This document shows, one piece after another, positions 3,827 to 23,977 of a stretch of DNA of 23,977 nucleotides. A model generated the notes under the pieces. The model searched no databases and was not told the DNA's origin. It saw only the letters and a list, made by a program, of their open reading frames with translations. Both the position numbers and the translations under genes were made by a program. The stretch is from a virus, in the IMG/VR virus record IMGVR_UViG_3300009155_003259, positions 1 to 23,977 of that record; one strand, 5' to 3'. Numbering within the stretch: position 1 is the stretch's first letter; each line of letters begins with the position of its first letter.

Positions 3827-3855
3827 ATTATAGCAGAACGGGCAATTCCGGTCAA
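3827..3855 (-). promoter_or_regulatory. Sigma70-type promoter of the HD hydrolase operon
   Basis: Minus strand TTGACC (3850-3855), 17-base spacer, TATAAT (3827-3832). The -35 lies in an inverted repeat CCGGTTGACCGG. The spacer closely resembles that of the promoter at 14253-14281 (shared CCGTTCTGC before the -10). Confidence 0.85.
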
Positions 3856-3871
3856 CCGGGTTGCATTACAA

Positions 3872-4924
3872 TTAAGTTTGAAATATAAACTCTTGAGATA
3901 AAATTCCACCTCTGCGGAGATTGATTAAAATTTCATCCCAGTTGGATTTAAACGCCCAGTTTTCAAAAGAACTTGGACGTTGATTTAGTCCATAAAATAT
4001 TAATGTGTGTAGTTCGTCGGAAAAATCACCGGTTGCATACCAAAATTTATCAGCAGTAGGATATGTTTTTTGTGGCTGGTGGGTTTTCTTGGGCATAAGA
4101 ATTGCTCCGGCAGGATATGTCAAAGTTTGAAACAAAGACAACATATTTTTTTGTTCTCTACCAGTAATAGTCTCTTTGAATTTTTTTGGAAAGTATCCTA
4201 GTGACTCAAACTTTGGTACGAGTTCTGACAGATATGCATTTAGAACAGCGGATCCTGAACCAGTACAAATCGATTCTGGAGTATCCATGATTTGATTAAA
4301 TGCTCTATCAATGTATAAAAATTTCCAACATTGTTGATCATCATCAAACCATATGTTAGGCTGTTGAAATCCAAACAAATCAAACTGATTTACATCATCC
4401 AATATGGGATAACATTGATTGTATTCATAAATGCCTTTCATCATGCCCGGCTCTACATAGCAAAAATGCATGAACTTCTTGTGCCACTCAGAGTCAGAGT
4501 AAAACCAATTAAAATAATTGTTGTTGCAATTGATTACTGTTAACTTAGTTGATGCAAATTTTTCTTTGTAGTTTTGTGCAATTGGAATAGCACATCGATC
4601 AACTTCGGCCAAATTACAAAACACAACCAGTGGATCAGTTGGAGTATATCGAATCATCACAATTTCGTCAAACACAATGTTGTATTTGTAGGCAGTATCA
4701 AGAACTATACGCGAGTCTGGCCCGCCCGAAAACCAAAAACGCAGATACGAATGTTGATCTCTAAGTTGAATCAAATGATCTCTAATTGCGTGTTCAAAAC
4801 TAATAGCTGGATTGATTGAGAATTTGTAATTGTCAAACCCGTTGCCCAATACAAATTTATAATCAGTAGTATAGTCTATATCCCATTGGGAATATACAAT
4901 TTTTGTATCATTGACGTAGTGCAT
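3872..4924 (-). CDS. PP-loop ATP pyrophosphatase-domain protein
   Basis: A 350-residue protein with a P-loop-like FSGGPDSRIVLD (about residues 64-75), the SGGxDS signature of PP-loop (N-type) ATPases that adenylate a substrate, as in asparagine synthetase, LarE and tRNA-thiolation enzymes. No glutaminase domain precedes it and no CX2C tRNA-thiolase motif is seen. The rest is aromatic-rich with no domain I recognise. The ATG overlaps the stop of the TctC gene (TAATG), so translation is coupled. It is the last gene of the transporter cluster. The locus is clearly AT-richer than the HD/ligase genes beside it, suggesting separate acquisition. The substrate cannot be inferred. Confidence 0.75.
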   Translation of the reverse strand: MHYVNDTKIVYSQWDIDYTTDYKFVLGNGFDNYKFSINPAISFEHAIRDHLIQLRDQHSYLRFWFSGGPDSRIVLDTAYKYNIVFDEIVMIRYTPTDPLVVFCNLAEVDRCAIPIAQNYKEKFASTKLTVINCNNNYFNWFYSDSEWHKKFMHFCYVEPGMMKGIYEYNQCYPILDDVNQFDLFGFQQPNIWFDDDQQCWKFLYIDRAFNQIMDTPESICTGSGSAVLNAYLSELVPKFESLGYFPKKFKETITGREQKNMLSLFQTLTYPAGAILMPKKTHQPQKTYPTADKFWYATGDFSDELHTLIFYGLNQRPSSFENWAFKSNWDEILINLRRGGILSQEFIFQT

Positions 4925-5787
4925 TATTTTTTGATTGATTTCAACAAAAAGTTAACTTGTTCGTCGGTTGATGCTGTAGACATTTTTGTAAAAAACTGTC
5001 TGGTCTTGAAATAATCTTGAAGCGGTTGAGTTTGCAACAAACGAGCCATATCAGACCGTAGTTCAGTTTGAAGATTGGCAGGAATATTTTTGGAAGAAGC
5101 ATAAACCATCATGTAATAATTCATTACACTTTGATTGATCTCTCCCAATGGGCGTGTGCTCAGTAACTCGGTTGGACCAGTATTGTGAGTACATACAGCT
5201 TGACCATTGCGTTCAATGACCTTGCCCGACGTTCCTAACACATACTCAGTTTCTTGTGCAGCAGCAGCACGAATCTGTGCCCCACTACCGCTGTAGATTA
5301 CAGTTTTGACTGTGCCAGGGCTGGCAGCTTTGATAGCATCAGTGACCCAATTCAAAGTGCTTGGGAATGACTGTACACTAATACGATATGTACCGGGCGT
5401 GGTAAAAATAGCATCAGGTGCAGTCTTACCAACAGCACAAAGATAATCGGGTGCATAATACCAAATTGATATCATATTTTGTGCAGTAGGCGGCACAAGA
5501 TAGCATTCATGATCAAGAGGCAACAAATGGTCTCTATTAGACCACACTGCTATTGTTGGTTTTTTGGTATTTTTAAGATCCTGTGCCATAGCTGCACAAT
5601 TGCCATTGTACAACACAATCGATGTATCCCATCCCAGTTGTTTAAGGCCGGGGGTTAGTAGTTCGGCAATATTTTGATCATTTGAACCGCCACCCCAGGG
5701 GATTAAAAATGTAAATGTTTTGTCAGCTGCGGACGCACCGGCAGCGATAACCATTGCAGTTACGAGAGTTAATAGTTGTTTAATCAT
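4924..5787 (-). CDS. tctC: TctC/Bug-type periplasmic solute-binding protein
   Basis: A 287-residue protein with a clear Sec signal peptide: basic start MIKQ, hydrophobic core, cleavage expected after ASA (about residue 20). The mature part begins with a beta strand and IPWGGGSNDQN (29-39), matching the P-(F/W)-x-x-GG-xx-D ligand loop of the Bug family. Bug/TctC proteins bind carboxylates and feed the tripartite tricarboxylate transporter (TTT). The adjacent TctA-type permease gene (20-base gap) supports this strongly. RBS AAAGG is 8 bases before the ATG. It is divergent from bacterial members, and several cysteines in the mature part are unusual. A carboxylate ligand is inferred, not shown. 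Confidence 0.8.
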   Translation of the reverse strand: MIKQLLTLVTAMVIAAGASAADKTFTFLIPWGGGSNDQNIAELLTPGLKQLGWDTSIVLYNGNCAAMAQDLKNTKKPTIAVWSNRDHLLPLDHECYLVPPTAQNMISIWYYAPDYLCAVGKTAPDAIFTTPGTYRISVQSFPSTLNWVTDAIKAASPGTVKTVIYSGSGAQIRAAAAQETEYVLGTSGKVIERNGQAVCTHNTGPTELLSTRPLGEINQSVMNYYMMVYASSKNIPANLQTELRSDMARLLQTQPLQDYFKTRQFFTKMSTASTDEQVNFLLKSIKK

Positions 5788-5807
5788 AGAGTATCCTTTC
5801 TAGTTAA

Positions 5808-7112
5808 TTATAAAACATATAGCTGTAAAAGTCTATATGCAGTTGGCCAAAAATACGGACCCAGCATCCATACAAAAATCATTGGAACTGGATCAATTTT
5901 TTTCTTGTACAAAAAATATCCCACCACAGTGGAAATTGCAAAAACAATCATGTAAAAGACTGAGCGGTCTGAGTCCATGCCCAAATACCAAACATCACAT
6001 GCTATCAATGCAAAAATAAAATAAAATACATATTGGTAATATCTGGCAAACCAGTTGATCATTTGAACAATATAATGCACACAAAATGCAAGACATGCCA
6101 CTACTCCAACTGATATACCCACGGCCATTTTCAAATAAGTATCCGCATTGAGTTGGTTAATCGACCAACCGCGATCGGTCAGCAAATTGACCACTATGGC
6201 CTCACTTGGTTGTATTGCCACACCAAATACCAATAATGGAAACAGCACAGATATCACAGCCGCATTGTCGGCTGCTTCCGCTGAACTTATTCTTGTCAAT
6301 GCAGTGCTAGATTTGATCTTGGATTCAACAAAATGTGCAGTAGCAGCACTTACTGTTACTCCAATCAACGGCAACAGTCCTGTTAAAAATCCAATAATAG
6401 TACCTCGGGCCATCACTGCGGCTGGTACCAATTGTACAGGTTGACTGGTATCAATTTTGTTGTGATCTACTGGACTTGCATTGGACATATCTGCCATGGC
6501 AGCAAACAACATAGGGATGGCATACATGCCTAACAGTATAGGAAGGAAAGGCAAGCCATTGACCAAAAATTCTACCCCCATGGTCAGGATAGATTTACCT
6601 AAAAACTGGTTGTATCCAATCAAGCTACCTACTAGCCCAATCACACACAATAGTAAATTTGTTTTGAATTTATTTCCAGACCAAGCCAGCGCAGAAACTG
6701 CTACCACGACTATAATGACAAAGAATACATCTGTGCGAAGAAAATATCGAAATTCAGTACCAAACTGAATTAACAAGCTCAGCATTGCTACAGATGCTAA
6801 CGTGGCAACAGCACTAGCCTGTCCAGTCCTATACAATGCAGTCCATAACAAGTCGGAGTTGATGATTTCTTGTCGTTCTTTAAGAACTGGAATGGCCGTG
6901 ACATCACCAGCAAGGCCAAGCCACAGCCCAACTACACTTGAGCTAAACTGCCCGCAAGTGATCATGGTAGCATAAAATGCAATCAAAGTGTTGAATTCTA
7001 AATGTGCCACAAATGGATATAGCATGATCATCATCACGCTGTCTCCTATTGCTGGCAACATTCCTACCAAGAGTCCTATTGGGATTGCAAGAAATATTAT
7101 AAAAAATTCCAT
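5808..7112 (-). CDS. tctA: TctA-type permease of a tripartite tricarboxylate transporter
   Basis: A 434-residue, very hydrophobic protein with about 11-12 membrane segments. The TctA layout is visible: an N-terminal GLLVGMLPAIGDS loop (TctA: G-x-PGxG), a segment with GQFSSSVVGLWLGLAGD (TctA: yyGGs...P) and a mid-protein repeat of the first motif, GFLTGLLPLIGVTVSA. The C-terminus ends in PMIFVWMLGPYFWP, like the TctA P-x-x-LG-x-x-LG-P region. With the TctC homologue next door this is a proton- or sodium-driven carboxylate importer. I found no separate TctB (small 4-helix subunit). It follows the oxygenase stop by 6 bases. A transporter of this type in a phage is unexpected. Confidence 0.8.
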   Translation of the reverse strand: MEFFIIFLAIPIGLLVGMLPAIGDSVMMIMLYPFVAHLEFNTLIAFYATMITCGQFSSSVVGLWLGLAGDVTAIPVLKERQEIINSDLLWTALYRTGQASAVATLASVAMLSLLIQFGTEFRYFLRTDVFFVIIVVVAVSALAWSGNKFKTNLLLCVIGLVGSLIGYNQFLGKSILTMGVEFLVNGLPFLPILLGMYAIPMLFAAMADMSNASPVDHNKIDTSQPVQLVPAAVMARGTIIGFLTGLLPLIGVTVSAATAHFVESKIKSSTALTRISSAEAADNAAVISVLFPLLVFGVAIQPSEAIVVNLLTDRGWSINQLNADTYLKMAVGISVGVVACLAFCVHYIVQMINWFARYYQYVFYFIFALIACDVWYLGMDSDRSVFYMIVFAISTVVGYFLYKKKIDPVPMIFVWMLGPYFWPTAYRLLQLYVL

Positions 7113-7118
7113 GACAAT

Positions 7119-7964
7119 TTATAATTGTATCTGCTTGACCAAGTGTTGGTTGATGTTATTGATGATCCAATGGTCTGATGAGTTATTAATCATGCCACTG
7201 ATTCTTAAAAACACCCTAGGAACCCAGGCAGTATTTGCTGTGTAGTGCATTCGATTACAATTATCAAATACCACTGCATCCCCAATTTTCCAATTGGTCC
7301 AATATTGATCATCTACTCCCAACACATGCCCGGGTACATAATCAGTCAGTGCCATCAACAATCTAATAGATGTCATGCCTCTGATTGACTTTGTGGACAC
7401 ATCAAATGGCAAATCTAATACTGTAGGATTGCTAGCAGCTATGTTCCGCCACATGGTCAACATAGTATCCACATGTGCTGGAAAAATACAAGCAGTTGGT
7501 TGATATTGTATTGCTACGGCACAATGCTCTAGATCAAATGCTTGTGCTATGGTTAATAATTCAGGATACGCTACAGGATTGATTATACTGTGTGTTACCG
7601 AATTGAATCCTGCGGCTTTTTGCATAGCATGCTCACCACCTAGATAATTGGTATCAAAAGAACTATTTGAAGCAGTAATATGCTTGTTGTCTTTGGAGAT
7701 TTTATTAGCTAGATCTATTAGAGTTGGGGATGTGACTGTGGCAATATGCTCTATTTTGTATTCTCTAATAGTGATACTGGTTGCTAACTTAGAAATTTTA
7801 TATACATCGGGTCCTAGAATGTCTATGAGATTTTCATAGTTGTCCATCCAAGAAAAATAATCTCGCACTGTTTTTATATTGGCATATTGTGTCTGATAAA
7901 AAGACAAGGCTGATACGGTCAAATTATCTACTTGAATTTCACGGCCAATAATATCAGTGTTCAT
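7119..7964 (-). CDS. 2-oxoglutarate/Fe(II)-dependent oxygenase-like protein
   Basis: A 281-residue protein. The iron facial triad is visible as H164-V-D166 (FPAHVD) and a distal H240 (NRMHYTAN), followed by R250 (VPRVFLRISG), the arginine expected to hold 2-oxoglutarate. Between them WKIGDAVVFDN is the typical strand before the distal histidine. This is the double-stranded beta-helix core of aspartyl/asparaginyl-hydroxylase-like or phytanoyl-type dioxygenases. I see no clue to the substrate. The ATG follows the phosphoesterase stop by 1 base; an upstream GTG start is possible but lies inside that gene. TctA follows directly, so it shares the transporter operon. Confidence 0.75.
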   Translation of the reverse strand: MNTDIIGREIQVDNLTVSALSFYQTQYANIKTVRDYFSWMDNYENLIDILGPDVYKISKLATSITIREYKIEHIATVTSPTLIDLANKISKDNKHITASNSSFDTNYLGGEHAMQKAAGFNSVTHSIINPVAYPELLTIAQAFDLEHCAVAIQYQPTACIFPAHVDTMLTMWRNIAASNPTVLDLPFDVSTKSIRGMTSIRLLMALTDYVPGHVLGVDDQYWTNWKIGDAVVFDNCNRMHYTANTAWVPRVFLRISGMINNSSDHWIINNINQHLVKQIQL

Positions 7965-7965
7965 G

Positions 7966-8511
7966 TCAGTGATGCTCTTTGATTGCACCCTTCAAGCCAA
8001 GTCGAATTGCTTCGTCCATGGAGATAGCAATTGCACCAGTGGAATCCATGCCAACATCCACAGCACGATATCGCTCCATTCCACTTGTGCCACCGTGAAG
8101 ATGACCATGCAAGTGTACTGAACCGCAATGCATTTGGTCCCATTCTGCAATAGGATAGTGAAACATCACAACTTTGATTTCGTTGAACTGCACATCCAGA
8201 TACTTGTGGACTTCGCAAAAACATGCACGGAATTCAGGATCCTGCAAGGTCTTGCGGTCGTGATTGCCTTCAATCAGGATTTTGTTGCCGTTGCAACGCA
8301 TCATGTATTCTGCTGCTTTGGCCGCTGGCAAGAACGCTACATCGCCTAGGATGTACACAGTATCTTCAGGAGCAATCATGGCATTCCATTCAATTACCAT
8401 TTGTTCGTTCATGTATGCAACATCGTCACGAAATCGTGCCCGTGTTACAGGGCAGAACTTCATGATGTTTTTGTGCCCAAAGTGCAAGTCAGATGTTACC
8501 CAAGTCTTCAT
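7966..8511 (-). CDS. Calcineurin-like metallophosphoesterase
   Basis: A 181-residue phosphoesterase with all metal-binding motifs in order: D8-L-H10 (SDLHFGH), GD57 (ILGDVAF), GNH84D, H118 (FHYP) and G136-H-L-H139. Small phage enzymes of this type can hydrolyse phosphodiesters or phosphomonoesters; the substrate is not evident. The start is set at MKTWVTSDLH because motif I must lie at the N-terminus and the ATG sits just after the stop of the preceding gene. It is second in the operon started by the promoter at 8771-8799. Confidence 0.88.
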   Translation of the reverse strand: MKTWVTSDLHFGHKNIMKFCPVTRARFRDDVAYMNEQMVIEWNAMIAPEDTVYILGDVAFLPAAKAAEYMMRCNGNKILIEGNHDRKTLQDPEFRACFCEVHKYLDVQFNEIKVVMFHYPIAEWDQMHCGSVHLHGHLHGGTSGMERYRAVDVGMDSTGAIAISMDEAIRLGLKGAIKEHH

Positions 8512-8512
8512 A

Positions 8513-8764
8513 TTATTTCTGTTTTGTTTGGCCAATGCGGCTGGCCTTATTCCAGGTGTACGCTACCCCATCAGGAGTCTTACCATCCACCACAGCATCC
8601 ACACCAGGTTTGCCCACGTGGTTGGGATCTTCTGATACCATGGTAACAAAGATCATGCCCAGCTTGCGAAAGGCCTCGGTATACTTCAATGCTTCGTTTA
8701 GGGTAACGGCATCATGTGCGTGTGACCAATTGGTCACAGGATCTGTATAGTAGATTTTAAACAT
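8513..8764 (-). CDS. Small hypothetical protein, first gene of the transporter operon
   Basis: An 83-residue protein starting MFKIYYTDPVTN. I do not recognise the family. It may fold as alternating beta and alpha elements. The ATG lies only 6 bases beyond a perfect TATAAT box, so the mRNA should start at or next to the ATG (leaderless); an upstream in-frame ATG would overlap the promoter. The operon behind it holds a phosphoesterase, oxygenase, TctA, TctC and the PP-loop protein. Confidence 0.75.
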   Translation of the reverse strand: MFKIYYTDPVTNWSHAHDAVTLNEALKYTEAFRKLGMIFVTMVSEDPNHVGKPGVDAVVDGKTPDGVAYTWNKASRIGQTKQK

Positions 8765-8770
8765 AACCCT

Positions 8771-8799
8771 ATTATATAGCATAGCACTATTCAAGTCAA
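8771..8799 (-). promoter_or_regulatory. Sigma70-type promoter of the transporter operon, leaderless
   Basis: Minus strand TTGACT (8794-8799), 17-base spacer, TATAAT (8771-8776), then only 6 bases to the ATG at 8764. It fills the space after the stop of the amidotransferase-like gene. Confidence 0.85.
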
Positions 8800-8800
8800 G

Positions 8801-9463
8801 CTATGTTGACATAAGGGTGTGGGTAAATTGCAACAACAGTTGATGATGCAGTCCTTGATGCCAATGTGGTGCTAGATATTGCCAGGGTTTTTGATACCAT
8901 AATCGGGTACTTTCTAAATGACAACCAATCACCCCAACTCTGTTTTGAATGATAGCCATTGGGTCACCATTTGCATATCGACCCACAGTGGTAAATTTGG
9001 TCTCATCACCAATCAGGGCACACCCGTCCCAGAAGAACATGTTATGCGGTTGGCCTTGCCAATCAATTGCGGTAACAGTTCCGTAACTTCTACGTACCTC
9101 AGCACCCGGACGTTTGATGTATTGTTCGCACTTTACGTCCTGCAAAATATCAAAAAACCAATGCCCGGCCCAGTATGCTCCCATGCAAATGCCCAAGTAT
9201 CTGCCGCCGGATTCCACAAAATCAGCTATCATGTTGGCTTGTTTACGCAGGAAGAAATCATAGTAGCGATCAGCTTCGCCAATCCCCCCTGGAAACACAA
9301 CCATTGCTGCCTGTGCCAACAAGTCTGAATTTAGAGTTTTTTCGTTGAATCTCTGTACGCGATAGTGACTGCCTAGACTCTTTTCTACCCCATCACAGCT
9401 TTGATTGCTGCATTCAGGATGATGAGAGAACAAGGCAATCAGGGGTTTATGGGCATCCAGCAT
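8801..9463 (-). CDS. Class I glutamine amidotransferase-like protein (BPL_N type)
   Basis: A 220-residue protein with the class I amidotransferase fold: FPGG at 57-60 (oxyanion loop), the nucleophile elbow GICMGAYWAG with C93, and H182/E184 in GCHLESTRLWY as candidate catalytic partners. The pattern best fits the N-terminal domain of fungal biotin-protein ligases (BPL_N), whose stand-alone bacterial relatives have no settled role. A hydrolase or glutaminase activity is likely, but a partner synthetase is not adjacent. It has no Shine-Dalgarno; a late-promoter-like motif shared with the radical SAM gene at 537-1295 ends 4 bases upstream of the ATG. Confidence 0.75.
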   Translation of the reverse strand: MLDAHKPLIALFSHHPECSNQSCDGVEKSLGSHYRVQRFNEKTLNSDLLAQAAMVVFPGGIGEADRYYDFFLRKQANMIADFVESGGRYLGICMGAYWAGHWFFDILQDVKCEQYIKRPGAEVRRSYGTVTAIDWQGQPHNMFFWDGCALIGDETKFTTVGRYANGDPMAIIQNRVGVIGCHLESTRLWYQKPWQYLAPHWHQGLHHQLLLQFTHTLMST

Positions 9464-19772: not shown

Positions 19773-19865
19773 CTAACTATCCATCCTGTCATTTTCATTT
19801 GAACGATAGCACATGTATAATATCCCTACAATATATCCAAGTAAAAATCCCCAAATAAATGCCAT
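19773..19865 (-). CDS. 30-residue single-helix membrane peptide
   Basis: A tiny ORF: MAFIWGFLLGYIVGILYMCY makes one transmembrane helix with small-residue (GxxxG-like) spacing, then a short hydrophilic tail SNENDRMDS. Its ATG shares a base with the QueE stop (TGATG), so it should be translated by coupling, and its stop abuts the next gene. Membrane micropeptides of this type often regulate a partner in the membrane; partner unknown. Confidence 0.6.
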   Translation of the reverse strand: MAFIWGFLLGYIVGILYMCYRSNENDRMDS

Positions 19866-20728
19866 CAAGTGCCCCACTCGTTCTTGAACAAAGGAACTTG
19901 AAGTCGATCACTGTAGCGCCAGCCTTGATTCATGGCCAAGATAGCCACATTCTTATTGTTCAACGCATATACACTTTCAACTCCGCCAATGGGCATGAGA
20001 TACACATGACCCTTGAATCCTGCTGCACGATATTCTGCCACTGCACGTTGAGCATCTGCAAAATCTTCATTGGTAGAAATTACCAGTTTCAAGTATGTGT
20101 GCCCAACATCTTGGTATTGACACACAATCTTGGGACAAATAGCATCTGACCACTTCTCACCTGAACAAGGCAGTTTAGCACTCACACTAAATGTCAATGC
20201 TTCTCGGCCACGTGCCTTGTTACCCAGTGTCCAGTTTAACAAATATTTTCTAAACTCAGTGCTGAGTTCTTGAGTACCATTTGTTTCAAATGTGATCTCT
20301 CGAAGTCCGGCCATCTTGGGATCATCTAACAAACTAGGATATGCACGTTGCCAACCTAGCAATGGCTCGCCACCTGTGATCACAAGATGTTCGTCACGCC
20401 ATTCCTTAAATGGCAGCATGGTCACAATGTCTTCGGCAAGTTCAGTATTTTTACGTACAGGACTTAGATTCTTAAAGTCAGGATGCCAGCTGGCATAGCT
20501 ATCGCAACCAGTACTGACCAGTGGCAGCTCTTTGTATTTTTTAAACGGATGCATAGCATTCATGACTGCTATTTCATCTGCTTCTTTGCTTAGTTCACCG
20601 CGTGGCATACCAAATCCTGCGCATTTGAAGTTGCATCCAAACACACGCAAGAACACACTGGGCACCCCCATATACCGTCCTTCTCCTTGAATTGAGTAAA
20701 ACAATTCTGCTACTTTTAGTTTGCTCAT
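19865..20728 (-). CDS. queE: QueE-like 7-carboxy-7-deazaguanine synthase
   Basis: A 287-residue radical SAM enzyme resembling QueE, which makes 7-carboxy-7-deazaguanine for queuosine or deazaguanine DNA bases. SIQGEG (12-17) is the substrate-binding motif, GGEPLL contacts SAM and VSAKLPCSGEKW fits the C-terminal part. The iron-sulphur motif is split: C32-NFK-C36 is followed by a 38-residue insertion before C75 in GCDSYASW, which matches the canonical third cysteine (CX3CX2C). Canonical QueE are ~220-240 residues, so the insertion explains the extra length. QueC, QueD and FolE are not in the window. Its ATG overlaps the methyltransferase stop. Confidence 0.85.
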   Translation of the reverse strand: MSKLKVAELFYSIQGEGRYMGVPSVFLRVFGCNFKCAGFGMPRGELSKEADEIAVMNAMHPFKKYKELPLVSTGCDSYASWHPDFKNLSPVRKNTELAEDIVTMLPFKEWRDEHLVITGGEPLLGWQRAYPSLLDDPKMAGLREITFETNGTQELSTEFRKYLLNWTLGNKARGREALTFSVSAKLPCSGEKWSDAICPKIVCQYQDVGHTYLKLVISTNEDFADAQRAVAEYRAAGFKGHVYLMPIGGVESVYALNNKNVAILAMNQGWRYSDRLQVPLFKNEWGT

Positions 20729-21504
20729 ATTTTTTGTGCTTTAATTAACAAATGCCAACCTAGATATTCTTTAACTGCTGCTCGCATGTCTTCGGGCATG
20801 GCAGCAAACCAAGGCTCCAATTCGTACTCGCCAGTGCGATACTTAACTACATTATACATGAAACAATGATCTTGTCTAATCCTTAGGACCTCAAATTGTC
20901 CTTTTAAGAGATCATAAATTTCTTCTTTGCTATAGGCCTTGGCATACGGGCAATCTGCTTGTGCTTCAAATTGATCTAGGCCTTTTTGGATCATAGCATA
21001 CTTCCACGAATTCTTTGCGTATACCAACATACGGAACTCCCCGCCGGGCACTAATGCAGCATGGATGTTATTCAAACAAGTAGTCATGTCCGGATAGTGG
21101 TGCAATACCCCGCAACTGTATACTAGATCAAATTTTCCTAGACCGGCAACCGCAGCAGTATCTGCACCATCCATCACATGGAATTTGCCAGTTAACCCAA
21201 ACACTTCAAATCGTTGTTGACTCATGGCCACCGACTCTGCTGAAAGATCAATACCCACATAATCTGCACCGTGACGTGCAAACTCCACAGCATCTGACCC
21301 AATTCCAGATCCTATTTCTAAAACACGTTTGCCGCGCCAAAGATGAAAACTAGCAAAGTCACGTAGATGAGGTTCTACAAAGAATCTACGTTCCAAAACT
21401 TCATTCCAATATTGTTCTGTGCCCGGAACACTAAGACTGTGCTTGACGTTGCAAGGCTGAGTATTCCAGTACTGTTTAATTTTGTCTACAAGGTCAGTGG
21501 TCAA
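20725..21504 (-). CDS. SAM-dependent methyltransferase
   Basis: A 259-residue class I methyltransferase: motif I VLEIGSGIGSDAVEFARHGA (about 60-79), motif II YVGIDLS, and the motif IV region FDLVYSCGVLHHYPD (about 125-139). The VLHHYPD signature is typical of type 11/12 methyltransferases acting on small molecules, lipids or sugars rather than DNA. The only plausible start is a TTG at 21504, 11 bases inside the preceding gene. It sits between QueE and a glycosyltransferase-like gene. Confidence 0.85.
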   Translation of the reverse strand: MTTDLVDKIKQYWNTQPCNVKHSLSVPGTEQYWNEVLERRFFVEPHLRDFASFHLWRGKRVLEIGSGIGSDAVEFARHGADYVGIDLSAESVAMSQQRFEVFGLTGKFHVMDGADTAAVAGLGKFDLVYSCGVLHHYPDMTTCLNNIHAALVPGGEFRMLVYAKNSWKYAMIQKGLDQFEAQADCPYAKAYSKEEIYDLLKGQFEVLRIRQDHCFMYNVVKYRTGEYELEPWFAAMPEDMRAAVKEYLGWHLLIKAQKI

Positions 21505-22327
21505 GATCAGTGCTACTCCATGATTTCATTAGACCCTTATGATCTAATTTCAACATCTTTTCCCAGATGTTTATTTTGTTTTCTATACCCAATTTAAAAT
21601 GTGTTAGATCATATCCTGATTTTTCCAAATAATGTGCAATCTTGTTGGCATCATCTTGTCGGCGCATACGCCATGACATGTGATTGAAATCTCTAGGATG
21701 TGCAGGATTACCTTCTAGCATAGGACGATTCTTAAACACATTATCACCATTCAGACCAGTGAGATCAAATCGTTGATGTTCAATCATCACAGGTATAGTA
21801 ATCACAACATCCAACATCCATGCAACCTGGCTGGTCCATGCATCATTGAGTTGGTGTGGTGATATGTGTCCGGTAAGTTCTAACCATTTTTTTGGCAGGA
21901 TAGGGAAAATAGCATATGGATGATCATGATTGGTTTCTGCTCGCAGCAGTGCAAATTGATTGTTGTATTGTCGAATCACGTTATCCCAATGAGGAGTGGT
22001 CATTACTGCGTCATCGTTCCAGACTAGATACCAGCGAGCATCAACATGTTTTGCCAAGAAATTCACATATTCATTAAGACGTATATAGCCCAACGGAACA
22101 AAATTCAAAGCCAAATATTCTGCACCGATCAAATCTAACCATGGTTTTAAATCAGTGTTAAAATATTCCAGTCCAACAGAATCGTCTTGATCAAATGCCA
22201 ATAGTAATTTTATTGACTTATGATCAGCTGCATGATCATACAGTGATTTCACACTGGTCATCAGTGCAGTGGTTCTTCCTCGGGTAGGTAATAATACCCC
22301 GATATCATACTCGAAATTACAATTCAT
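21494..22327 (-). CDS. Glycosyltransferase family 2-like protein
   Basis: A 277-residue protein with a GT-A-like start (IGVLLPTRGRTTALMTSV) and the nucleotide-sugar/metal site ARWYLVWNDDAVMTTPHWD, with NDDA standing for the D-x-D motif. No membrane segment, so it is cytosolic. Target could be DNA (as in T4 base glucosylation), a virion protein or host glycan. Start is the ATG at 22327, preferred to an upstream TTG. It overlaps the next methyltransferase by 11 bases. Confidence 0.7.
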   Translation of the reverse strand: MNCNFEYDIGVLLPTRGRTTALMTSVKSLYDHAADHKSIKLLLAFDQDDSVGLEYFNTDLKPWLDLIGAEYLALNFVPLGYIRLNEYVNFLAKHVDARWYLVWNDDAVMTTPHWDNVIRQYNNQFALLRAETNHDHPYAIFPILPKKWLELTGHISPHQLNDAWTSQVAWMLDVVITIPVMIEHQRFDLTGLNGDNVFKNRPMLEGNPAHPRDFNHMSWRMRRQDDANKIAHYLEKSGYDLTHFKLGIENKINIWEKMLKLDHKGLMKSWSSTDLDH

Positions 22328-22344
22328 AATTTTTAACAATTATT

Positions 22345-23977
22345 TTATATGGTTAATAATTTTTTCTTCTTCACGGAAAAACTACCTTGTGCTTTGGCAC
22401 TTCCGGCACCACGTTGCGTTCCATTTGCATTTTCAACTCCCACAAGATCCACCGTGGCTTTACCAAAGTTTCTGCGTCTTGCAAAATAAAACAATTCTAA
22501 GAATCGATTAAGACTCATAGTTTTATCCTCTGGAAAGTCCAATCGATATGTTGTATAAGTCTTTGTCAGGGGTTGATTAAAACTCAAGTAATCCCAAATA
22601 TTATAATCTAACTCAAGATTCATAGGATATTGATTTCTATCATTGTACTTGATATAGTAACTTCTTTGTAGTTTCATTAGGCTGGTTGATAAATCTTCGG
22701 GTAGATTGTAGCGTTGTAAAAATATTTCCAAGAAATCATACAACTCATCTACTCGATCTTCTTGATGCATGTTCATGCTGGTTCTGTGTATGATATTCCA
22801 CCCGTGTATTTCCACACCAATCTTGGGATGGTTGATTTGACCAGTGGTCATCCAATTAGAAAAGTATTGTCTTGTTTCGCTTTGTTCTTTTTTCAACCAA
22901 TGATTGGTCATAAAATATGCAAACAACTCTTCGTAGTAATCATTATAATCGATACCTGTGTATTTGTTAATAAATCTAGCAACCAGTGTGGCAAATCCAT
23001 TGATGTGGAATGTGGTCTGGAACCAGGAAAAGATCTGTGCATCCAACATCACTGGTGTGGGCATGTCTTTGGTACCGGTGATGACATCAATGCTTTCTTC
23101 AATGTGTTCCACACTGTAACTGCCAGCAAAGTAATCTGTAACAGGTTGGCTGGTAATCTTGAACAATTTTTTCTGCAACAGATTCATTTCGGCATTTTCC
23201 AACAACTGCGCTTGAAACACAGTGATACCAGTGTGCTGATTTAACTCGTACAATGCATAAAAGTTTTTCTTCCAGGTTGTCAAGGTCTCACCTGGCAACC
23301 CAAGTATGAGTTCTGTGTATGCAGGAATATTACGCTGATCACATAATTCAAACACTTCTTCCAGTTTGTTCATCTCCATATTTTTGCGGCGAATATTTTC
23401 CAACACATCTTGGTCTAGACTTTGTACACTCAGTGTTAATCCTTGATTGAAGCCACGAGCATCCAACAGTTTCTTTACAATGTCAATCACTTCTTTCTTT
23501 TGATTTTTAGCCCAGGCCACACTAAACGTGCGTGGAGAACCGTATTTTTCTTGGCACTCAATTATCTTGTCAGCAATCATACCATCACGTTCAGGGAACA
23601 TGCCAAAATTAGCATCGGTAATTGAGATCCAATCAAAGTTGCGTTTGGCCATCCATTCTAGTTCTTCAAACACACGTTCAAGTTCAAACTTTTTAACTTT
23701 GTTGTAGGTTAAACTGCCCCAGTCACAGAATGTACAAGCAAACGGACAACCACGATTGGTTTCCAATGTACCTTGCCATGTTATGTCAGGATGATCAGCA
23801 ATCATCTGGTCAAAGATACCTGCCAAGTATGGGCTGGGCACTTCCTCTAATGATTCGATACGTTTGGAATCCTGGGTTTGTATTGCGAGGCCATTTCTGT
23901 TGATCAACAGTCCGGGTACATTTTCCCAATCTTTAGTTTCAAAGTGCTGTAGCACACGTTTGAAAGTTATTTCGCCT
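22345..23977 (-). CDS. Large radical SAM protein (B12-binding type), 5' truncated by the window
   Basis: At least 544 residues; the reading frame is open to the right edge, so the N-terminus is missing. About residues 73-85 of the visible part, ETNRGCPFACTFC, contain the CX3CX2C radical SAM cluster, followed by DWGSLTYNKVKKFELERVF and, later, LGLPGET. Residues just inside the edge (FKRVLQHFETKDWENVPGLL) look like the linker after an N-terminal cobalamin-binding domain, as in BchE/MiaB-like P-methylases, so a B12 domain probably lies beyond the window. The C-terminal ~300 residues resemble no domain I know. B12-radical SAM enzymes methylate or rearrange unactivated carbons; substrate unknown. 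Confidence 0.8.
   Translation of the reverse strand, partial: GEITFKRVLQHFETKDWENVPGLLINRNGLAIQTQDSKRIESLEEVPSPYLAGIFDQMIADHPDITWQGTLETNRGCPFACTFCDWGSLTYNKVKKFELERVFEELEWMAKRNFDWISITDANFGMFPERDGMIADKIIECQEKYGSPRTFSVAWAKNQKKEVIDIVKKLLDARGFNQGLTLSVQSLDQDVLENIRRKNMEMNKLEEVFELCDQRNIPAYTELILGLPGETLTTWKKNFYALYELNQHTGITVFQAQLLENAEMNLLQKKLFKITSQPVTDYFAGSYSVEHIEESIDVITGTKDMPTPVMLDAQIFSWFQTTFHINGFATLVARFINKYTGIDYNDYYEELFAYFMTNHWLKKEQSETRQYFSNWMTTGQINHPKIGVEIHGWNIIHRTSMNMHQEDRVDELYDFLEIFLQRYNLPEDLSTSLMKLQRSYYIKYNDRNQYPMNLELDYNIWDYLSFNQPLTKTYTTYRLDFPEDKTMSLNRFLELFYFARRRNFGKATVDLVGVENANGTQRGAGSAKAQGSFSVKKKKLLTI

Follow-up and report, generated by a model that had tools for sequence, protein, structure and literature searches.

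Comparison of gene order and protein identity among related contigs showed that three genes, tctA (a TTT-family permease), a tctC-like gene (a putative secreted solute-binding protein) and a gene for a PP-loop ATP-pyrophosphatase-like protein, move between phages as one conserved and co-transferred unit. The explanation we favor, with moderate confidence, is that this unit would encode a phage-borne TTT-type carboxylate importer without a phage TctB, coupled to swappable and optional tailoring enzymes. The viruses that carry the cassette are uncultured and come from lakes and the ocean.

Gene run and phage setting of the cassette

The window analyzed here is an IMG/VR virus record of 23,977 bases (G000). 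Six open reading frames lie in positions 3872–8764, all on the minus strand, as the first-pass annotation had placed them, with predicted starts at 8764 (83-aa protein), 8511 (phosphoesterase), 7964 (oxygenase), 7112 (TctA), 5787 (TctC) and 4924 (PP-loop protein). The run is tightly packed, with about 2 bases between the phosphoesterase stop and the oxygenase ATG. The last two genes, for which translational coupling had been proposed, overlap: the tctC stop and the PP-loop start share TAATG both in the window and in locus L003.

The 83-aa protein (8513..8764) had no significant match in Pfam, PHROG or NCBIfam. It is followed by a calcineurin-like phosphoesterase (7966..8511; phrog_547, E 2.8e-52; Pfam Metallophos), a 2OG-Fe(II) oxygenase-like protein (7119..7964), TctA (5808..7112, 434 aa), the TctC-like protein (4924..5787, 287 aa) and the PP-loop protein (3872..4924, 350 aa). 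A class-I glutamine amidotransferase-like protein (8801..9463, minus strand; Pfam BPL_N, E 3.8e-14) lies directly upstream of the run. None of the cassette genes matched the PADLOC defence models.

That a single promoter precedes the six genes was upheld in part. A sigma-70-type site (TTGACT-17-TATAAT, 8771..8799, minus strand) agrees with the consensus at 11 of 12 positions and is conserved in locus L004, but such sites are overall no commoner than in shuffled sequence (32 in 12 kb versus 29.6, sd 6.0). Its -10 element is very close to the ATG at 8764, so the 83-aa gene would be leaderless. A similar site (TTGACC-17-TATAAT, 3827..3855, minus strand, 11 of 12 matches), directly past the PP-loop gene, is predicted to separate the transcript of the HD/ligase genes from the cassette. 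The claim that base composition sets the run apart likewise held locally: GC content is 35–41% over approximately 4–8 kb compared with 47–48% in the HD/ligase genes. Yet the window has further stretches that are just as rich in AT, among them 22–23.5 kb (35–37% GC). Composition is therefore weak evidence, and we dropped AT-richness as the mark of a foreign operon.

All of the records examined are metagenomic and many are fragments. A gp23 match was found in 3 of 47 records, and the record that holds the T4-like locus L018 (G005) has gp23; a terminase match was found in 8 of 52. Neither was matched in the five window-type records, whose phage status rests on other phage genes. A window exonuclease, for example, is nearest to those of jumbo phages PA5oct, XaC1 and RaK2 (approximately 49% identity). 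In representative records of other lineages the neighbors of the cassette include tail sheath, terminase, tail, tail fiber, PhoH, head/packaging and DUF6267 proteins. Judged by these phage genes, the cassette genes lie in phage DNA; a bacterial origin of the window contig was considered and dropped. In eight T4-like loci (L055, L056, L070, L071, L091, L092, L102 and L103) tctA-tctC sits beside terminase and/or tail-sheath genes, which would be an unusual place for metabolic cargo.

The three-gene block in close relatives

Four IMG/VR contigs (G001–G004) hold relatives of both tctA and the PP-loop gene. Across the block, G004 and the window encode identical proteins. In G003 (125 kb) the complete gene order is preserved at 92–98% identity. 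G002 (31.8 kb) and G001 (16.6 kb) gave identical matches where the two overlap and represent a second phage lineage, in which tctA, tctC and the PP-loop gene are 85, 93 and 87% identical to the window; the PP-loop gene of G001 is cut by the contig end and is 86% identical over the truncated copy. G001 and G002 lack the 83-aa gene, the phosphoesterase and the oxygenase upstream of tctA, and among these relatives the 83-aa gene was found only in G003 and G004.

Alignment of the window with L003 showed homology running from the tctA ATG to just past the PP-loop stop, with different flanking genes on both sides. Other genes shared by the two are only 40–78% identical. Within the block, dN/dS values were 0.09/0.92 for TctA, 0.04/1.02 for TctC and 0.07/0.87 for the PP-loop protein (ratios of 0.04–0.10). 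From this block of identity and these ratios, the three genes form a block under purifying selection, and the oxygenase and phosphoesterase are optional.

These data divide the six-gene operon that had been proposed. Related phages preserve TctA-TctC-PP-loop, in the window and its four close relatives and in rearranged form in two further loci (L046 and L081), but not the six genes as one unit. The phosphoesterase probably shares a transcript with the cassette in the window phage and lies outside its core; belonging to a common phage family (phrog_547) and missing from G001 and G002, it was dropped as a pathway member.

The surroundings of the block in the second lineage were also of note. Upstream of the cassette in G002 (L003:3137-5596) are sulfotransferase, acyl-carrier-protein-like and fatty-acid-desaturase-like genes, the last two named from sequence and the desaturase without a family match. 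The amidotransferase-like gene at 8801–9463 was not found in L003.

The transporter pair across phage lineages

The window TctA is certain by family profile (Pfam PF01970, E 1.4e-40). The GxxxGxxPxxG motif occurs twice in it (residues 13 and 241), and approximately 11 hydrophobic segments are predicted from hydropathy. No close match was found in 50,697 phage records, and no close bacterial relatives of the window TctA or PP-loop protein were found in the genome contigs scanned. Profile scans built on near-identical rows returned only the known contigs and L018. A scan with a four-row TctA alignment gave 194 relatives, of which the best 80 were kept; these correspond to 79 loci, which are therefore a biased sample, and with L018 make the 80 loci analyzed. 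Beyond the window and its close relatives, TctA was found in a further 75 viral loci, one of them L046, among the best 80 of the 194 matches.

A tctC gene was present in 78 of the 80 loci (best 80 of 194 plus L018); the other two, L051 and L103, are cut short by the contig end, within tctA or immediately past it. In this sample 73 loci have one type of TctC (cluster c1) and five the window type (c40). Clustering 79 of the 80 TctA proteins at 80% identity, with one of no more than 400 aa left out, gave 14 clusters, and tctC adjoins tctA in all 14. Other neighbors in the same set of best matches plus L018 were more variable: a methyltransferase (c2) occurs in 10 of the 14 clusters, a P-loop protein (c3) in seven, a PP-loop motif gene in six (in three of them adjacent or next but one on the same strand) and an oxygenase homologous to that of the window in five, always within three genes of tctA. 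The methyltransferase (e.g., L069:12039-12701) matched Methyltransf_23 below the cut-off (E 0.0005) and no PHROGs family. Eight of the 14 clusters in the loci from the best 80 of 194 matches thus have no PP-loop gene.

L046 was the closest outgroup among the best 80 of the 194 TctA matches. Its tctC, tctA and PP-loop genes, in the order C-A-P, overlap by a few bases, with TctA 32% and TctC 25.5% identical to the window proteins, and a gene 48% identical to the amidotransferase-like gene of the window lies just upstream. In L081 the order is P-C-A, on one strand beside tail-fiber genes. A different arrangement was observed in the T4-like phage locus L018 (L018:5577-12691), where two AMP-binding enzymes and an Asp/Asn beta-hydroxylase-like gene surround tctA-tctC, an alternative set of enzymes for activating and hydroxylating acids.

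In a tree of 11 phage TctA representatives and 14 bacterial and archaeal sequences, the latter from plasmid records only, TctAs of T4-like and related phages formed one clade (95/100) near the large bacterial TctAs. The window type and L046 formed a second clade (100/100) on a long branch. Phage TctAs were monophyletic in 18% of bootstraps with these 11 phage and 14 cellular rows, by which a single phage origin of TctA is neither shown nor excluded.

The window protein that directly follows tctA is called TctC-like mainly because of its position, a signal-like N-terminal stretch and its counterpart before tctA in L046 (E 1e-17). It is 93% identical in L003. PF03401 was not found in it, nor was any significant Pfam, PHROG or NCBIfam match, and a plasmid search gave none at E≤1. 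Against a 12-sequence HMM it scored E 0.11, compared with 0.33 for shuffled sequences. Together with its L046 counterpart it gave a colinear alignment of 191 columns with a larger TctC profile (probability only 21%, E 0.001). When the search was reversed, ranks 1–3, 6, 8 and 9 of 773 went to known TctC proteins, each at E >0.1. A fold search with the low-confidence model was uninformative, and the absence of TctC/Bug chains from its rows shows nothing. These comparisons weakly support a TctC identity for the window protein itself. By contrast, the TctC of T4-like phages is certain from profile alignment with bacterial TctC (hhalign 99%, E 6e-18).

We did not detect TctB in any of five records at E≤10 or of 47 at E≤1, many of the records being fragments and TctB being poorly conserved. 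The accessible text of a review (PMC5812351) counts TctB among the components of the TTT system and calls its function unknown.

Enzymes of the cassette and its proposed function

The PP-loop protein of the window has an SGGPDS motif, and S-G-G-x-D-S is invariant in an alignment over three phage groups. The loop opens a Rossmann-like core, as judged from the motif and the secondary structure of a low-confidence model. No significant Pfam, PHROG or NCBIfam match was found, no glutaminase domain was seen and asparagine synthase (PF00733) was not found at E≤10; the PP-loop proteins of L112 and L062 matched PF00733 only below the cut-off. The L046 protein is homologous by profile (hhalign E 4e-6) and came first among 1,243 other proteins, at E 9e-4; the phage records gave a single match, at E 9. 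Structure models of the PP-loop and TctC proteins, built from three close sequences, were poor (mean pLDDT 37 and 50). The core of the PP-loop model weakly resembles the folds of LarE, NadE and GuaA, with matches to LarE, GuaA and NadE at Z 4.6–5.2, below or tied with unrelated rows. The protein thus resembles the N-type PP-loop ATPases (NadE, GuaA, LarE; asparagine synthase) in its SGGxDS loop and similar predicted core, and differs from them in lacking a family match and a visible glutaminase domain and in having a C-terminal two thirds that is unmatched.

Separately, the record of L018 holds an asparagine-synthase-like PP-loop gene approximately 10 kb from tctA (L026:931-1713), between two radical-SAM-like genes named by eye from sequence.

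The oxygenase has an HxD...H...R pattern whose residues H164, D166, H240 and R250 are invariant in eight aligned phage homologues, seven of which come from other tctA-tctC loci (BLAST E down to 1.8e-9). It had no significant Pfam, PHROG or NCBIfam match. No curated 2OG-oxygenase family was matched by more than one of the eight homologues (best E 0.049, Asp_Arg_Hydrox), and the region resembles AtsK at E 0.024 only. A homologue of one tctA-linked oxygenase occurred in only one of 50,697 phage records. A homologous oxygenase near TctA, the co-occurrence that the first-pass annotation had proposed as a check, recurs in T4-like and other phages but not in G001 and G002, and the gene appears to be an optional partner of the cassette.

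Under the importer reading, TctA as permease and TctC as secreted binding protein would make up a TTT-type system for carboxylate uptake that is produced during infection, and for this system a phage TctB may be dispensable, or TctB may be host-supplied. The PP-loop ATP-pyrophosphatase would most likely adenylate a carboxylate, plausibly the imported acid or a compound derived from it, as a step toward amide or thio-type ligation, and the upstream oxygenase would be an optional tailoring enzyme. The amidotransferase-like protein, which has GxCxG and HxE motifs, is a possible ammonia donor, and its link to the cassette is tentative. We infer that transport is inward, that the substrate is a carboxylate and that the enzymes act on it; the dicarboxylate that had been named, with its import followed by hydroxylation or activation, may be read in the same way. 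The logic of such a pathway is reasonable given that bacterial TTT operons often carry enzymes able in principle to use the imported acid, including, in one case, a TauD/TfdA dioxygenase beside tctB-tctA-tctC in a plasmid operon.

This importer reading draws on the TctA-TctC pairing, shown by the locus comparisons to recur in many phage lineages, with the oxygenase recurrent beside it. Against it stand the failure of the window TctC to match PF03401, the absence of TctB, the eight clusters without a PP-loop gene and the poor models. A broader proposal, which we regard as a doubtful possibility, is that several unrelated phage lineages hold a portable “import and activate” pathway, in which a two-part TTT system without TctB and a PP-loop ligase and/or 2OG oxygenase would convert an imported acid into a compound that infection needs, with the amidotransferase perhaps as the ammonia source.

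Alternatively, TctA-TctC could be a plain nutrient importer feeding host central metabolism, the PP-loop protein and oxygenase being unrelated cargo (e.g., for RNA modification) in a hypervariable region. We consider this unlikely, even though TctA-TctC is the sole pairing in all 14 clusters (best 80 of 194 plus L018) and its partners vary by lineage between methyltransferase, P-loop protein, oxygenase, AMP-binding enzymes and PP-loop protein. In G001/G002 and L046 the PP-loop gene travels with the transporter genes, overlapping them. Distantly related phages again have the oxygenase close to tctA, while among the 50,697 phage records just one has a homologue of one such oxygenase and none a close TctA. 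Less probable still is a small-molecule or surface-modification pathway, in which the enzymes would build or tailor an amide, sulfated, methylated or hydroxylated acid, the transporter would supply the precursor or recover the product, and uptake for growth would be incidental. The methyltransferase in 10 of the 14 clusters (best 80 of 194 plus L018), the AMP-binding pair and hydroxylase-like gene of L018 and the sulfotransferase, ACP-like and desaturase-like genes of L003 agree with it, but no product, scaffold enzyme or exporter was identified and the enzyme sets are not constant. An envelope role, such as exclusion of other phages or membrane alteration, with the enzymes unrelated, is very improbable: in some T4-like records terminase and tail-sheath genes flank the cassette, which probably puts it in a late region, but TctA keeps both transport motifs under purifying selection and the secreted binding protein is retained throughout.

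Measured against bacterial TctABC/Bug systems, the phage cassette, as predicted, shares a TctA with a duplicated motif and an adjacent secreted binding protein (clear for T4-like phages), as well as neighboring substrate-using enzymes, once a TauD dioxygenase on the bacterial side. It differs in that TctB was not found in 52 phage records, that the window TctC falls beyond PF03401, that gene orders are A-C-P, C-A-P and P-C-A, and that phage TctA splits into two clades, with a very long branch leading to that of the window. The uptake genes of phages are usually single ones, and a permease with a binding protein and enzymes that could act on the imported acid would be viral cargo hardly described so far.

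A phage-encoded uptake gene is known from cyanophage pstS (PMC6359870), whose periplasmic binding protein is thought, in the portion of that review available, to raise nutrient uptake; here both permease and binding protein are phage-encoded, with linked enzymes. The same review also lists viral tctA. Among SUP05 viral AMGs, a tctA domain match and a 2OG-Fe(II) oxygenase were reported in marine viral contigs with their role called unknown, and the accessible text describes no tctC, tctA-oxygenase linkage, PP-loop gene or cassette (Roux et al. 2014, PMC4164917). “Tricarboxylate transport” genes appear in one myovirus-like island (available portion of PMC8115048), and the word “phage” does not occur in the accessible text of the TTT review (PMC5812351). 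In the parts of the open-licence PMC literature that were available, no description of a tctA-tctC pair or PP-loop linkage in phages was found; phage tctA was thus already known as a domain match, and the cassette, as far as found in those sources, was not previously described. If the pair kept in 14 TctA clusters with linked enzymes functions as proposed, infected cells would scavenge a specific dissolved acid for the virus, and the cassette would offer a natural experiment on whether TctB is dispensable for a TTT transporter.

Elsewhere in the window, a radical SAM protein (537–1295) weakly matched prokaryotic viperin models. Positions 19865–23955 contain a row of genes that we take, in part from Pfam matches, to be a QueE-like radical SAM, a methyltransferase, a glycosyltransferase-like protein and a second radical SAM.
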